Shown here in pieces: positions 12,507 to 63,630 of a DNA stretch of 64,000 nucleotides (position 1 is the first letter of the stretch; each line of letters starts with the position of its first letter). A program made the position numbers and the translations under genes. Location: positions 372,001-436,000 of the forward strand of contig NZ_CP050902.1 in assembly GCF_012272695.1 (NCBI RefSeq), read 5' to 3'. Source of the DNA: Nocardioides sp. JQ2195 (GTDB lineage Bacteria; Actinomycetota; Actinomycetes; Propionibacteriales; Nocardioidaceae). The notes under the pieces are model-generated. The model made no database searches, had not been told where the DNA came from, and saw nothing but the letters and a program-made list of their open reading frames with translations.

Positions 12507-12519
12507 TCTGCATTTCCTC

Positions 12520-12582
12520 GATAGTCCCCAACGTCCGGCATCTCGGAATCGGCTTCCCGCCTGCGTGGCGTTGGGGACTATC
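12520..12582. repeat. 63-bp palindromic repeat, family A copy 1
   Basis: Ends GATAGTCCCCAACG and CGTTGGGGACTATC are perfect inverted repeats 63 bp apart; the 35-bp interior is only partly symmetrical. It is one of five copies of identical length (others at 25962, 27180, 33498 and 61371). This copy lies between the tRNA terminator and a methyltransferase gene. Confidence 0.9.
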
Positions 12583-12632
12583 CGGGGACGTGTCGGGCGG
12601 GCCTGCCTTGGTGGCTCGCCTACGGTGGGCGT

Positions 12633-25952: not shown

Positions 25953-25961
25953 TCCCTTCCC

Positions 25962-26024
25962 GATAGTCCCCAACGTCTCGCAGGTGAACTCGGGCGTTTC
26001 GGGTGCGAGACGTTGGGGACTATC
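25962..26024. repeat. 63-bp palindromic repeat, family A copy 2
   Basis: Here the arms are perfect for 21 bp: 25962-25982 pairs with 26004-26024 around a 21-base loop. It lies between the convergent pit gene and the endonuclease-domain gene, whose TAG stop codon (26020-26022 read leftwards) is part of the palindrome. Confidence 0.92.
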
Positions 26025-27114
26025 GCGGGGGCTTGCTCGCCTGCCGGCGAATCGCCAAGAACCGCCGGCGCTGTTCGGGGGTGAGGGCACGGCGCTGCGT
26101 GACCGTCGACGTCGGTGTCCACCACTGCGGGGGCGTGATCGTCCACGGCCGATCCGTCCGTGCTCTGGGTTCGGCTCGCGCGTAGGCCGCCCGGAGACGG
26201 CCGACGACGGCTTGATGGTCAGGAAGGTCGCTGGCCAGCATCGTGACCACCTCCAGGCCGACGTCGCGGAACCGGGCCTCCCGGCGTACGTCGATCGAGC
26301 GTTGCGGTCCGGCAAGGTGCAGTGAACCGTCGTACTCCCCGATGACTCCGACGACGGGATCGAGCAGGTCGGGGGTCCCGATGTGCCGGCCCTGGAGGTC
26401 GAAGACCGGCGCGTTGGTGAGCGGTCGGGCCAGTCCGGCCTCGCGGGTCCACATGAGCCGCATGTCGACCTCGCGCGGCGACCAGGCGTTCTCGTCGCAG
26501 TGCAGGAGGGCGTCACGACACTGCGGAATGCCCGTCCATCCGCGGTGCTCACTGGCGTAGTCGTGGACCTCCTCGAGTGAGACGAGGTCGTTGTGCGCCG
26601 CCATGTCGAAGGCGCGTACCGCCGCAACCAGGCTCGGTGCCCGGCGCATCATGAAGCAGACCGATCGAACGGCGACCGTGACGCGGACCCCGTCCACCTC
26701 GATCAGCTCCTGGGGGTCGAGGCCTTCCTCGCAGATCGCGACGCCCGGCCACGGGCGTCGGTATGAGCAGGCGAGGTCGACGTCGAGCGGGCTGCCATCC
26801 GCAGCCGAGCCCTCGAACCAGCCGCCGCCGAGCCAGTGCAGCGCGCCCCAACCGGTGACTCCGCCGGCGACTCCGCCCGGGGCGCGGTCGTCGCTGGGCA
26901 GGAGCTTGGCCGCCTCGACGATGCGTTGAGGTGTGGTCAGAGGGACGTCGGTCGGGACGTACAGTCCCAGTCCGGTGCGCCTCCAGTGGGGGCCGGAGGC
27001 CTGCCCGCGGGTGGGCCCAGCGCGACCGCGGGGGTCCACACCGACCGGCCAGGTGACGCGCCGGCTGGTGCTGGGGAAGTCGTCGTGGAAGTCGTCGAAG
27101 TCGTGGATGGCCAT
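26020..27114 (-). CDS. DUF559/Vsr-like endonuclease-domain protein
   Basis: A 364-residue protein of a type common in high-GC actinobacteria. The N-terminal and central parts resemble AbiEi-like/transcription-regulator modules (GGVAGGVTGWGALHWLGGGW). The last third looks like a PD-(D/E)xK fold: VVGVIGEYDGSLHLAG, then RREARFRDVGLEVVTMLASDL. Function is unproven; related proteins are annotated as DUF559 or type IV antitoxin-like. No toxin partner is next to it. Its stop codon is supplied by a 63-bp palindrome, and another copy of that repeat lies just upstream of its start. Confidence 0.6.
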   Translation of the reverse strand: MAIHDFDDFHDDFPSTSRRVTWPVGVDPRGRAGPTRGQASGPHWRRTGLGLYVPTDVPLTTPQRIVEAAKLLPSDDRAPGGVAGGVTGWGALHWLGGGWFEGSAADGSPLDVDLACSYRRPWPGVAICEEGLDPQELIEVDGVRVTVAVRSVCFMMRRAPSLVAAVRAFDMAAHNDLVSLEEVHDYASEHRGWTGIPQCRDALLHCDENAWSPREVDMRLMWTREAGLARPLTNAPVFDLQGRHIGTPDLLDPVVGVIGEYDGSLHLAGPQRSIDVRREARFRDVGLEVVTMLASDLPDHQAVVGRLRAAYARAEPRARTDRPWTITPPQWWTPTSTVTQRRALTPEQRRRFLAIRRQASKPPR

Positions 27115-27179
27115 GTGACCACCCTGAGAAGGGCGACCGACAATCAGGGACCGTTTTCCACAGGGGCCCCCATCTGCCC

Positions 27180-27242
27180 GATAGTCCCCAACGTCTGGCA
27201 GCTCAAAGGCGGGGTTTCGCCTGCGAGGCGTTGGGGACTATC
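27180..27242. repeat. 63-bp palindromic repeat, family A copy 3
   Basis: It has the same 14-bp perfect ends as the other copies, with a less symmetrical interior. It lies between the pstB stop and the start of the endonuclease-domain gene, both on the minus strand, so it could separate the two transcripts. A G-rich stretch (27243-27285) follows it. Confidence 0.9.
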
Positions 27243-27288
27243 GGGGGAGGGAGGTGGGGGAGGGAGGTGCGGGGGGGGAGGGCGAGGG

Positions 27289-33485: not shown

Positions 33486-33497
33486 TTCCCCCTTCCC

Positions 33498-33560
33498 GAT
33501 AGTCCCCAACGTCTCGCAGGTGAACGCGAGCGTTTCGGATGCGAGACGTTGGGGACTATC
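33498..33560. repeat. 63-bp palindromic repeat, family A copy 4
   Basis: As in copy 2, 21 bp of the arms are perfect (33498-33518 with 33540-33560), and CTTCCC/GGGAAG extends the pairing outside. It lies between two convergent genes, 13 and 8 bases from their ends. Its sequence is nearly identical to copy 2, differing only in the loop. Confidence 0.92.
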
Positions 33561-33567
33561 GGGAAGG

Positions 33568-35745
33568 TCAGCGGCGGCGTTGGCGGTGCTGCTCGATCAG
33601 GACCTGGTGCAGGTGCTGGGTGCCGGACGTGCGGGTCCACTGGGCGTCGGCACCGAGCGTCCACGCCGACGTGTCGTCGTCGAACGCGAGGTCGAGCACC
33701 TCGGCCACCCGCCCGACGAGCTCCTGGGTCGGCAGCCTGACCAGCACCTCCACCCGTCGGTCGAGGTTGCGGTGCATCAGGTCTGCCGAACCGATCCACG
33801 CGGTCGGCTCCCCGCCACCCGCGAACTCGAAGACCCGGCTGTGCTCGAGGAAGCGGCCCAGCACGGAGCGCACCTCGATCGTCTCCGACAGGCCGGGTAC
33901 GCCGGGGCGCACGGCGCAGATGCCGCGCACCAACAGCTGCACGGGCACGCCGGCCTGGCTGGCCAGGTAGAGCGCGTCGATGGTGGTCTCGTCGACGATG
34001 GAGTTGGCCTTGAGCCGGATCCGGGCCGGACGCCCGGCGCGGTGGTGCTCGATCTCGGCGTGGACCTGCTCGATCAGGCCGTCGCGCACCGAGTCGGGTG
34101 CGACCAGGAGCTGCTCGTAGGAGGCGTTGCGCGAGAAGCCGCTCAGGTTGTTGAACAGGTGGGCGACGTCCTCGCCGATGGCTTGGTCGGCGGTGATCAG
34201 GCCGAAGTCCTCATAGAGGCGCGCGGTCTTCGGGTTGTAGTTGCCGGTGCCGATGTGGGTGTAGCGGCGGATGCCGTCGGGCTCGTCACGCACGACCATC
34301 GACAGCTTGCAGTGGGTCTTGAGGCCGACCAGGCCGTAGACCACGTGGCACCCGGCATGCTCGAGCTTGCGTGCCCAGCGGATGTTGTTGGTCTCGTCGA
34401 AGCGCGCCTTGATCTCGACGATCACCAGCACCTGCTTGCCGGCCTCGGCGGCATCGACCAGGGCATCGATGATCGGCGAGTCACCGGAGGTGCGGTAGAG
34501 CGTCTGCTTGATCGCCAGCACGTGGGGGTCGGCGGCGGACTGCTCGAGGAACCGCTGCACCGACGTGGCGAACGAGTCGTAGGGGTGGTGCAGCAGGACG
34601 TTGTTGCGGCGGGCTGCCTTGAACACGTCGACCGGGCTGGCCGACTCGACCTCGGCCAGCTCGGTGTGGGTGGTCGGCACGTAGGCGTCGTACTTGAGGT
34701 CCTCGCGGGCGAGGTCGGCGATGTCGTTGACCCCGCGCAGGTCGAGCGGGCCGGGCAGCTGCACGACCTCCCCGGGCGACACCCCGAGCTCGGAGACCAG
34801 CAGCTCGAGCACGCGCGGGTGGATCGACTCCTCCACCTCGAGGCGCACGGGCGGGCCGAACTTGCGCCGCAACAGCTCCTTCTCGAGGGCGGCCAGCAGG
34901 TTCTCCGCGTCGTCCTCCTCCACCTCGAGGTCCTCGTTGCGGGTGACCCGGAAGGTGTGCGCCTCGAGCACCTCCATGCCGGGGAAGAGCCGCTTGAGGT
35001 GCTCGCCGATGACGTCCTCCAGCGGCACGAAGCGCTGGTTGCCCAGGGGCACGAACCGGCTGAAGATCGGCGGCACCTTGACCCGGGCGAAGTGCTCCTT
35101 CTTGGTCTTCGGGTTGCGCACCAGCACCGCGATGTTGAGCGACAGCCCGGAGATGTAGGGGAACGGGTGGGCCGGGTCGACGGCCAGCGGAGTTAGGACC
35201 GGGAAGACCCGCTCCTTGAACAGCCGCTTGCACTGCTTCTGCTCGTCCTTGTCGAGGTCCTCCCAGCGCACCAGCTCGATGCCCTCGGCGCGCAGCGCCG
35301 GCACGAGGTCCCTCTGGAAGACGGCGGCGTGCCGGGCCATCAGCTCACCGGTGCTGCCCCAGATCGACTCGAGCACCTCGCGTGGCAGGTGACCGCTGGC
35401 CGCGCGTACGGCGACTCCGGCCGCGATGCGCCGCTTGAGACCGGCCACCCGGACCATGAAGAACTCGTCGAGGTTGCTGGCGAAGATGGCCAGGAAGCGG
35501 GCCCGTTCGAGCAGCGGCAACGATGCGTCCTCGGCGAGCTCGAGCACCCGCTGGTTGAAGTGCAACCAGGACAGCTCGCGGTCGAGGAAGCGATCGGGGA
35601 AGTCAGCCAGCGGCAGGGAGCCCTCGTTGGGGACGTAGGGCGGCTCGACGTCGAAGGTCTCGCTGCTCACCGCACGCAGCCCGGGCTCGAAGGGGCCGTC
35701 GTCGACCGATCCCGAGGTGTGCGAGGGCAGGCTGTCGTGCGTCAT
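33568..35745 (-). CDS. ppk: Polyphosphate kinase
   Basis: A 725-residue PPK1 that polymerises the terminal phosphate of ATP into polyphosphate. The N domain begins [19 protein letters not shown]; the head domain has [19 protein letters not shown]. The catalytic C-terminal domains have [30 protein letters not shown], the phosphorylated His in [14 protein letters not shown], and the second catalytic His in [15 protein letters not shown]. It lies beside mutT1 and the pst operon, forming a phosphate-handling group. Confidence 0.96.
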
Positions 35746-61353: not shown

Positions 61354-61370
61354 TCCATCGCCCCTCGCCC

Positions 61371-61433
61371 GATAGTCCCTAACGTCCGGCAGGTCTGCAC
61401 GCCGTTCTCACCTGCCAGACGTTAGGGAGTATC
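61371..61433. repeat. 63-bp palindromic repeat, family A copy 5 (right edge of the island)
   Basis: It has family A length and arms, but the C/G run reads GATAGTCCCTAACG and CGTTAGGGAGTATC: the T-A change is matched on both sides, while one base (GTC versus AGT) is mismatched. It follows the last island gene by 17 bases. Confidence 0.9.
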
Positions 61434-61488
61434 GAGGGAGGGCAAATCTCAGGATGTGAGCGGAGAGTCCGAGGAGTGAGATGCGGAC

Positions 61489-61525
61489 TTCGTGTGGCGA
61501 TGCGGGCGACGTAGTCTTTCCACCA
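61489..61525 (+). promoter_or_regulatory. Promoter of the leader peptide and sulfur operon
   Basis: TTCGTG (61489-61494) and TAGTCT (61512-61517) are separated by 17 bases, and the leader ATG at 61525 lies seven bases after the -10, so transcription and translation should start at the same base (leaderless). Confidence 0.7.
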
Positions 61526-61602
61526 TGTTCACGACACACCTGACCAAGCGCCGCGCAGTGGATCACTGCCGCACGCGCTCGGCCCTGTGTCGAATGTCCT
61601 GA
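61525..61602 (+). CDS. Cys-containing leader peptide upstream of the sulfur operon
   Basis: A 25-codon reading frame, MFTTHLTKRRAVDHCRTRSA then LCRMS, ending in TGA. It fits the actinobacterial putative leader peptides found before sulfur operons, which share an LTxRR...D..CR..SALC-type sequence and act in cysteine-responsive attenuation (family knowledge, from memory). Two Cys codons (TGC, TGT) sit in the second half. The start has its own leaderless promoter. It lies 208 bases before the DUF4395 gene, and a complementary segment that can pair with its end lies at 61661-61669. Confidence 0.7.
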   Translation: MFTTHLTKRRAVDHCRTRSALCRMS

Positions 61603-61669
61603 CGGGACGCCCTTTTCCCGCCGCGAACCGGCCTGACTCCAGGCCTCCCAGCGCGCAGCCGCGTCCCGT
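61602..61669 (+). promoter_or_regulatory. Candidate attenuator pairing after the leader peptide
   Basis: ACGGGACGC at 61602-61610, overlapping the leader stop codon, is perfectly complementary to GCGTCCCGT at 61661-61669. A ribosome stalled on the Cys codons or released at the stop would change whether this nine-base pair forms (inference). Confidence 0.5.
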
Positions 61670-61810
61670 GCCCTCCGGCATGCAGTCGCAACCGGTGAGC
61701 CTCGCCCCAGCCCACGCCGGCCACCCCACTCGGGTAGGTCCCGAGGGTGCCAGCCACGGGCGGTGAGAGCTTGCCCTCGACGGACCAGACCCAGGACCAG
61801 GAGCAACACC

Positions 61811-62260
61811 ATGAGCAAGCAGATCGATCCGCGCGGACCGCAGTTCGCGGCTGCGGTGACGTCGGTCGTGCTGGTCGTCGTGCTCCTGATCGCCCCGGCC
61901 ACCATCGGCGTCGCGCTGCTCGGCGCACAAGCCGCGCTGTTCGCGCTCGGCGCCGGCCTGGGGGTCCAGAGGACCCCTCACGCATGGGTCTTCAAGAACC
62001 TGGTCCGCCCACGACTGTCTGCCCCCACCGAACTCGAGGACGCCGCACCGCCGCGCTTCGCCCAGACCGTCGGACTGGGCTTCACGGCGGTCGGCCTCCT
62101 CGGATACCTCACCGGCGCCACGCTCGTGGGGGACATCGCGGTCGGCCTCGCGTTGGCCGCGGCACTGCTGAACGCGGTCTTCGCGTTCTGCCTCGGTTGC
62201 GAGATGTACCTCCTCGGGCGGCGGGCGTTCACCCGCTCCGCCGCGCCGGCAACCAACTGA
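61811..62260 (+). CDS. DUF4395 membrane protein
   Basis: A 149-residue protein with four hydrophobic segments (AAVTSVVLVVVLLIAPATIG, GVALLGAQAALFALGAGLG, TVGLGFTAVGLLGYLTGATL, VGLALAAALLNAVFAFCLGC) and the conserved FCLGCEMYLLGRR near the C-terminus, where the two Cys may be redox-active or metal-binding. DUF4395 proteins are usually encoded between a thioredoxin gene and a rhodanese gene in actinobacteria (from memory), suggesting a redox partner. CAGGAGCAACACC precedes ATG 61811. Confidence 0.85.
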   Translation: MSKQIDPRGPQFAAAVTSVVLVVVLLIAPATIGVALLGAQAALFALGAGLGVQRTPHAWVFKNLVRPRLSAPTELEDAAPPRFAQTVGLGFTAVGLLGYLTGATLVGDIAVGLALAAALLNAVFAFCLGCEMYLLGRRAFTRSAAPATN

Positions 62261-62297: not shown

Positions 62298-63146
62298 ATG
62301 AGCCGCGAAGACACCCTCGTCTCGACCCAGTGGGCCGAGGACAACATCGACAACGACCAGGTCGTCCTGATCGAGGTCGACGAGGACACCACGTCCTACG
62401 ACAAAGGCCACATCAGGGGTGCCATCAAGTTCGACTGGACCAACGACCTCCAGGACCAGGTCCGCCGCGACATCATCAACAAGGAGGGCTTCGAGGCCCT
62501 GCTGAGCAAGAACGGCGTGAGCAACGACCACACCGTCGTGCTCTACGGCGGCAACAACAACTGGTTCGCCGCCTACGCCTACTGGTACTTCAAGCTCTAC
62601 GGCCACAACGACGTCAAGCTGGTCGACGGTGGCCGCAAGAAGTGGGAGCTCGAGTCCCGCGAGCTGGTCCAGGACGTCCCGGAGCGCACCGCCACGACGT
62701 ACGTCGCCCAGGACCTCGACACCACCAAGCGCGCGAACCGTGACGACGTGGTCGCCGCGATCGGCGCCCAGAACCTGGTCGACGTCCGCAGCCCCGACGA
62801 GTACGCCGGCCGCCTGCTCGCCCCGGCCCACCTCCCGCAGGAGCAGGCCCAGCGCGCCGGCCACCCGCCGACCGCCTCCAACATCCCGTGGAGCAAGGCC
62901 GCGAACGACGACGGCACCTTCAAGTCCAACGAGGAGCTGACCAAGCTCTACGAGGAGGCCGGCGTCGACTTCTCCAAGGACACCATCGCCTACTGCCGCA
63001 TCGGCGAGCGCTCCTCGCACACGTGGGTCGTGCTGCACGAGCTGCTCGGTCACGAGAACACCAAGAACTACGACGGTTCCTGGGTCGAGTACGGCTCCCT
63101 CGTGGGTGTCCCGATCGTCCTCGGCGACGAGCGTGGAGAGGCCTGA
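62298..63146 (+). CDS. Thiosulfate sulfurtransferase (rhodanese, CysA/SseA-type)
   Basis: A 282-residue two-domain rhodanese. The inactive N-terminal domain has VLIEVDEDTTSYDKGHIRGAIKFDW; the active C-terminal domain carries the catalytic Cys in IAYCRIGERSSHTW, and DVRSPDEYAGRLLAP. It moves sulfane sulfur from thiosulfate to acceptors such as cyanide or thiols. AAAGAGAGAAACAAG precedes the ATG. It is followed after two bases by DUF1416 and corresponds to CysA2/CysA3 in mycobacteria. Confidence 0.93.
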   Translation: MSREDTLVSTQWAEDNIDNDQVVLIEVDEDTTSYDKGHIRGAIKFDWTNDLQDQVRRDIINKEGFEALLSKNGVSNDHTVVLYGGNNNWFAAYAYWYFKLYGHNDVKLVDGGRKKWELESRELVQDVPERTATTYVAQDLDTTKRANRDDVVAAIGAQNLVDVRSPDEYAGRLLAPAHLPQEQAQRAGHPPTASNIPWSKAANDDGTFKSNEELTKLYEEAGVDFSKDTIAYCRIGERSSHTWVVLHELLGHENTKNYDGSWVEYGSLVGVPIVLGDERGEA

Positions 63147-63148
63147 GC

Positions 63149-63445
63149 ATGTGCGGAGCAACTGCTGGGGGACTCTCCCTCGACGGCGTCAAGGTCGACC
63201 AGGAGGCCGTGATCCAGGGCCAGGTCACCCGCGGCGGCGAGCCGGTCGGCAACGCCTACGTGCGCCTGCTCGACAAGACCGGTGAATTCACCGCCGAGGT
63301 CCCGACGTCGGCGACCGGTCACTTCCGGTTCTTCGCCAACGACGGCGACTGGACCCTCCGCACGCTGGCCGCGGGTGCGGACGTGACCGACAAGAAGGTC
63401 GTCGCCGCGGTTGGTTCCGTGGCAGAGGTGGCCATCGCCATCTGA
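63149..63445 (+). CDS. DUF1416 protein (SseC-like)
   Basis: A 98-residue protein starting MCGATAGGLSLDGVKVDQEA with the family Cys at position 2, then a beta-sandwich-like VIQGQVTRGGEPVGNAYVRLLDKTGEFTAEVPTSATGHFRFFA (as successive segments). It is the SseC family, always encoded just after the CysA-type rhodanese in actinobacteria. Function is unknown, probably in sulfur transfer. ATG 63149 lies two bases after the rhodanese stop, so the two are co-translated. A long hairpin follows. Confidence 0.9.
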   Translation: MCGATAGGLSLDGVKVDQEAVIQGQVTRGGEPVGNAYVRLLDKTGEFTAEVPTSATGHFRFFANDGDWTLRTLAAGADVTDKKVVAAVGSVAEVAIAI

Positions 63446-63498: not shown

Positions 63499-63520
63499 CT
63501 GCATTTCGCACTCTGTCGTC

Positions 63521-63630
63521 GGCGGTTGAGGAGGTTGCGCAGCACCGTCCTCCGACGGTGGTTGAGGAGGTTGCGCAGAACCGTCCTCCGACGGTGGTTG
63601 AGGAGGTTGCGCAGCAACCGTCTCGAAACC
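63521..63630. repeat. 36-bp tandem REP array
   Basis: Three units beginning GGTTGAGGAGGTTGCGCAG start at 63524, 63560 and 63596, with period 36 bp; the last unit ends in CGTCTCGAAACC, completing an inverted REP. It fills most of the gap between the sulfur operon and the dehydrogenase gene. Confidence 0.88.

Follow-up and report, generated by a model that had tools for sequence, protein, structure and literature searches.

Cysteine leader peptides of mycobacteria, the closest described systems to the one analysed here, were reportedly shown by Canestrari in 2020 to be cysteine-responsive. One such leader, at cysA2/MSMEG_5788, was detected by ribosome profiling according to the available portion of Shell 2015 (PMC4633059), and the mycobacterial precedent for sulfur-operon attenuation that the initial annotation of our locus had invoked is right. 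Cys-rich leaders of cys operons had been predicted in Mycobacterium and P. acnes by Seliverstov 2005 (PMC1262725), whose accessible text describes no conserved hairpins, and further precedent for mycobacterial cysteine leaders appears in the accessible parts of PMC9031893 and PMC13236596. The uORFC-8-2 motif of Rhodobacterales cysS (excerpt of PMC8632094) is likewise a Cys-codon attenuator, but it has tandem Cys codons, mostly UGC, together with an intrinsic terminator, and belongs to a different bacterial class and gene.

The leader described here lies in a 64,000-nt stretch of the genome of Nocardioides sp. JQ2195, called the window below. Judged by its sequence it is a homologue of Ms5788A, the leaderless polycysteine short ORF of the mycobacterial cysA2/sseC operon, and would work as Ms5788A does: the two have in common the operon, the leaderless -10 layout, the LTKRRAVD core and Cys near the stop codon. 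The differences are that Ms5788A carries a poly-Cys run, as do most leaders of family f5 in our set, whereas this leader has two isolated Cys codons (15 and 22), and that support for one RNA helix, P1, is confined to the Nocardioides clade. The Ms5788A model NF042933 matches the leader with 34.2 bits (E 1.5e-8), below its curated cut-off of 45. Because neither the poly-Cys run nor a score above the cut-off is found, we place the leader outside Ms5788A membership. A second model, NF042934 (cis_reg_atten, putative leader peptide), aligns over all 19 positions and also stays below its cut-off of 27, with 22.1 bits, or 20.0 in the genome search. Unlike the cys leaders in the available text of Seliverstov 2005 (PMC1262725), this one has two helices supported within the Nocardioides clade. 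The motif strings gave no match in the literature, and the fixed UGU codon described below goes unmentioned in the parts of the literature covered, to which Canestrari 2020 does not belong. What is newly added here is that single constant UGU codon, the covarying helices P1 and P0, and a modelled opening of the ribosome-binding region with a ribosome at codon 22.

Layout of the leader and its operon

Direct reading of the sequence confirmed the 25-codon frame at the coordinates first proposed for it (Table 1). The leader is the first ORF of a cysA/sseC sulfur operon and is followed, after a gap of 208 nt, by the genes for DUF4395, the rhodanese (whose best NCBIfam match, NF008557, is below cut-off) and DUF1416. 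Inspection by eye showed a tandem repeat behind DUF1416, at about 63520-63630, in which a unit of some 40 bases (GTTGAGGAGGTTGCGCAG...CCGTCCTCCGACGGTG) occurs roughly three times.

Table 1. Coordinates of the leader, its RNA elements and the downstream genes in the window.
Feature	Position	Strand	Remarks
-35-like element TTCGTG	61489..61494	+	weak; sigma-70 consensus matched at 2/6 places only
-10 element TAGTCT	61512..61517	+	7 nt 5' of leader ATG, leaderless layout
Leader ORF MFTTHLTKRRAVDHCRTRSALCRMS	61525..61602	+	25 codons, read directly; ATG 61525, stop TGA 61600-61602
Codons 9-13, RRAVD	61549..61563	+	amino acids kept, synonymous drift
Cys15 codon TGC	61567..61569	+	variable; some relatives have L, G, R or M
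Cys22 codon TGT, proposed sensor codon	61588..61590	+	TGT constancy in relatives and stall model
P0 5' strand GTCCTG, leader end	61596..61601	+	pairing probability 0.91-0.95 in the window
P1 5' strand ACGGGACGC	61602..61610	+	starts at last stop-codon base; pairing probability 0.77-0.99
Hairpin GGCCTG-ACTC-CAGGCC inside P1	61630..61645	+	from sequence and fold
P1 3' strand GCGTCCCGT	61661..61669	+	exact complement of ACGGGACGC, 9 bp
P0 3' strand CAGGAC	61792..61797	+	directly 5' of Shine-Dalgarno; partner of leader end
Shine-Dalgarno AGGAG, first operon gene	61799..61803	+	from sequence
DUF4395 gene	61811..62260	+	PF14340, E 2.2e-38
Two-domain rhodanese gene (CysA/mercaptopyruvate sulfurtransferase type)	62298..63146	+	PF00581, E 1e-30
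DUF1416 (SseC) gene	63149..63445	+	PF07210, E 2.5e-37

The promoter proposed along with the frame stood in part: its two elements are spaced by 17 nt and the -10 box is conserved, but the -35 element, poor in its match to consensus, is also weakly conserved. Among non-redundant leaders with 60 nt of upstream sequence (of 154), with starts chosen independently of the -10 box, the columns T-13, A-12 and T-8 each reach 0.80 and C-1 reaches 0.95; the -35 columns are poor, with T at -37 and -36 in 0.44 and 0.40. The -10 box also recurs in many leaders of the class, where starts were chosen in its favour, and a consensus scanner reported no promoter at the leader. Because the promoter columns are conserved, the transcript likely starts at the leader ATG and is leaderless, and conservation supports the combination of leader peptide and leaderless layout that had been read from this one sequence.

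No Rfam family reached its gathering score; the sub-threshold matches were to microRNA families and on an upstream palindrome. This near-perfect palindrome (61359-61445; predicted hairpin of -55 kcal/mol) lies between an SDR gene and the leader promoter. It is one member of a dispersed family: the window has others near 12516-12588, 25954-26029, 27176-27251 and 33490-33570, and a search of the palindrome's own genome listed 26 matches, self and both orientations counted.

Conservation of the leader and its cysteine codons

A search profile built from eleven leaders (A1) gave a match at E<=0.01 in 142 of the 147 genomes of the genus Nocardioides and in 133 of the 134 genomes of good quality. 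Across the class the same search matched 225 of 296 genomes, 16 of the 225 belonging to the genus. The closest match, in Nocardioides sp. Soil797, has an identical peptide, and 70 of the 74 related loci checked carry one or more of the three operon genes.

A search of the 147 genus genomes for DUF4395 gave matches in 137, and 142 upstream regions were examined (30 loci and 112 regions). A loose pattern placed the leader directly before DUF4395 in 107 of them, with RRAVD in every one listed. Six of the other 35 loci hold a second or remote copy of DUF4395; the remaining 29 all have a CxxC motif upstream, which we take to be of the thioredoxin type. Among these 29 genomes, 23 have the leader about 1.8-2.1 kb upstream, four have it about 17 kb off and one on another contig; in one (G026) a search with A1 did not find it. 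The four at about 17 kb (G013, G041, G085 and G134) have leader and DUF4395 on the same contig, as if by insertion or a split operon. Second DUF4395 paralogues from five genomes (L148-L150, L152 and L153) differ in their start (LRxQVDPR) and have no leader in the upstream region examined.

Some Nocardioides genomes contain a second, shorter leader-like match covering about positions 5-25. In one (G031) two such short matches lie about 240 nt apart, and the three sulfur genes were not found in the 1.2 kb examined; in the genome that holds the window, C1:2212985-2213044 is a weak second match (E 0.003).

Within the peptide, RRAVD is invariant in the 74 DUF4395-anchored leaders, and several codons are used for R9, A11, V12 and D13. 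A class set of 25 leaders from 17 families shows the same core and the same synonymous drift, with Ile in place of Val in three, and in all 25 the distance from RR-A-[VI]-D to Cys is nine residues. Since both the script pattern and profile A1 favour the RRAVD core, the search itself accounts for part of its constancy but not for the synonymous drift, and amino-acid conservation with drifting codons upstream of the putative stall codon is present at R9, A11 and V12.

Conservation of the frame and of its Cys codons in relatives, on which the initial annotation had made its proposal depend, was borne out for the frame and for Cys22 but not for Cys15. Position 15 is Leu in three of the 74 DUF4395-anchored leaders and some other residue in seven of the 25 class leaders, and Cys22 is constant in both sets. 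This conservation lends support to the proposed attenuation by ribosome stalling.

The constancy of the second Cys extends to its codon. In the clade that comprises Nocardioides and near relatives, Aeromicrobium among them, all 143 non-redundant leaders have TGT as the Cys22 codon. The same is true of all 34 leaders of a class set and of 61 of 64 leaders from 19 families, a set drawn from selected loci among the class matches rather than from all 225 genomes, with one spurious frame removed from 65 and identical frames counted once. The three exceptions all come from f23, a family with small genomes, in which two further leaders do have TGT. TGT is otherwise the minority codon: the other Cys codons in those leaders are TGC 84 times and TGT 33 times, long open frames around 80 named loci have 1047 TGC and 163 TGT, and the window has 143 and 25. 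The poly-Cys leaders of family f5, which we infer from these leaders to be mycobacterial, align with our leader without gaps and have TGT at the same place; three of them were seen ahead of a CysA-like start.

RNA helices and modelled ribosome stalling

Not one of 100 dinucleotide shuffles folds as well as the RNA from leader to gene (z -3.8), and P0 and P1 are both part of the window's own minimum-energy fold. The nine-base pairing between the stop codon and 61661-61669 noticed at the outset, here called P1, proved to be an exact complement that outdoes swaps between species, but it is only part of the structure, as the end of the leader also pairs beside the ribosome-binding site (P0). Partner-swap permutations were run over 109 representatives, thinned for similarity. 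For P1 (post-stop segment with mid gap; 101 usable representatives) the native value was -18.24 and the swapped one -15.55 (sd 0.25), with 0 of 2000 permutations as good, and for P0 (last nine leader bases plus two with the Shine-Dalgarno region) the values were -9.57 and -8.71 (0/2000), while a promoter segment used as a negative control gave 646/2000. A longer version of the P0 test, which paired the leader end plus 12 nt with the Shine-Dalgarno region, was not significant (-14.80 vs -14.42; 138/2000). In the long test 103 of 108 foreign partners outrank the window's own, and in the short one 30 of 108 equal it. Swaps with the nearest differing relative were won by P1 in 79 of 100 pairs and by P0 in 69 of 100, against 48 and 57 of 100 for two controls, the pairs being not fully independent. 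The P1 duplex begins inside the stop codon in 82 of 100 leaders, the segment having been chosen to begin there, and in other families no P1 was found in the 22-95 nt range of 37 leaders (849/2000).

A third helix, L1, joins codons 2-5 to codons 20-24 within the leader and is present in the window's fold. Plain permutation favoured it both within the genus (0/2000) and across the class (0/5000; 2/5000 with at most two leaders per family and 107/5000 with one per family), but nearest-relative swaps in the genus gave it no support (46/100). The choice of TGT at Cys22 may reflect either a slow, wobble-read sensor codon or this helix. L1 is not the full explanation, since TGT is kept in nine of 34 class leaders whose 5' partner for L1 never beats -6 kcal/mol and since the swaps within the genus are unsupportive.

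For the stall model, the footprint of the blocked ribosome was fixed beforehand, from 13 nt behind the P-site codon to +16, and placed at 13 codon positions; the cost of opening positions -22 to +6 of the first gene was computed for the 87 representatives, out of 109, whose leader is 78 nt and whose gap is 60-215 nt long. The modelled cost is lowest when codon 22 occupies the A site, a change of -1.35 kcal/mol over the 87, compared with -0.22 at codon 15, -0.06 at codon 25 and -0.11 at the stop codon; the gain at codon 22 exceeds 1 kcal/mol in only 42 of the 87. This geometry, which favours codon 22, would explain why Cys22 rather than Cys15 is kept. With the last nine leader bases swapped the fall at codon 22 was 0.40 (p=0.001), the native one being larger in 50 of 87, and with whole foreign leaders it was 0.67, i.e. 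half of the dip survives, so that the effect rests partly on the shared UCCUGA and partly on species-specific pairing. For the window, the opening cost of 9.4 drops to 5.4 at codon 22 and remains between 5.7 and 6.5 from codon 23 to the stop; of four swapped leader ends tried there, one lowered it further than the native end did. Opening of the 5-nt Shine-Dalgarno core showed no gain over chimeras (0.42 vs 0.36 kcal/mol, 98 leaders), and in the window the core becomes less accessible when the ribosome stands at codon 22 (cost 1.6 vs 1.2). The models thus open the region around and upstream of the Shine-Dalgarno sequence and not that sequence itself, and this region-only opening is the weakest step of the translational model.

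A mechanism and its alternatives

From the frame, -10 box, UGU codon and operon context conserved among relatives, the covarying helices and the computed opening, we consider it probable that translation of the DUF4395-rhodanese-DUF1416 operon is set by a leaderless leader ORF that responds to cysteine, through translational attenuation acting on cysteine shortage. Transcription would begin at the leader ATG. With ample Cys-tRNA, ribosomes would traverse the leader and depart, and the freed leader end GUCCUG would then pair with CAGGAC beside the Shine-Dalgarno sequence to form P0, held in place by P1, with poor initiation on the first gene as the presumed outcome. With scarce Cys-tRNA, a ribosome would halt once UGU codon 22 is in the A site, and its front edge would mask five of the six P0 bases and end short of P1, so that the ribosome-binding region would become easier to open. 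The cysteine response and the direction of control are those that we infer from the gene context and this geometry.

Control of transcription is an unlikely reading, in favour of which stands a Shine-Dalgarno core that stays closed in the models. Depending on whether a ribosome is stalled or absent, the outcome would be either termination (Rho-dependent or U-less intrinsic) within the 208-nt gap or read-through; P1 would act as the antiterminator, which a ribosome at the stop codon would cover. The start of P1 at the stop codon in the window fits such trp-type geometry, and Rho-dependent termination is proposed for mycobacterial cys leaders in the available text of PMC1262725. Against it, the U-run intrinsic terminator of trp-type attenuators is absent from the + strand between 60500 and 64000, and both P0 and the profile over the ribosome-binding region favour translation. 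A competing helix between the 3' strand of P1 and downstream sequence, which such a switch would use, gave a single weak result (z -2.0, 47/2000) among eight tests, the other seven pairings finding no support, and we leave it out of the model.

We give a small chance to a leader that is first of all an arrest peptide, in which RRAVD in the tunnel would pause the ribosome at Leu21-Cys22 and the signal might be something other than Cys-tRNA, such as redox state, sulfide or an antibiotic. The constant core and its constant distance to Cys, with drifting codons, are what such a peptide would be expected to show, but the constancy of RRAVD is in part a product of search model A1 and the script patterns, and a Cys codon of fixed identity before sulfur genes suggests cysteine. 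That the leader regulates nothing, and either encodes a small protein or merely supplies ribosomes to the operon through coupling or reinitiation, is most improbable given a median gap to the gene of 113 nt (147 leaders), the constant UGU codon and the covarying helices, even though leaderless short ORFs are described as common in mycobacteria in the available part of PMC4633059.

Returning to translational attenuation, attenuators are usually recognised by runs of the regulating codon, a rule that would miss this leader, which is nevertheless found in nearly every Nocardioides genome searched. The question raised is whether the synonymous codon or the nascent peptide sets the sensitivity of a single-codon starvation sensor, and with a synonymous codon fixed at one place over many families it is directly testable. 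When codon 22 is in the A site, RRAVD lies 8-12 residues from the P site, a distance that resembles that of the critical residues of TnaC and suggests, by analogy, that RRAVD contributes through the nascent chain. We tentatively propose a sensor with two keys, a single wobble-read UGU (kept at the sensor position in 18 of the 19 families covered) and an RRAVD nascent chain nine residues upstream that primes the stall, with the poly-Cys type derived from this possibly older design; if it were true, one hungry codon would do what mycobacteria do with a run.

As a separate observation, a perfect 6-bp hairpin (GCAGTG-GAT-CACTGC, 61555-61569) lies within leader codons 11-15, and its GCAGTGGAYCACTGC form occurs in 105 of the 143 clade leaders.
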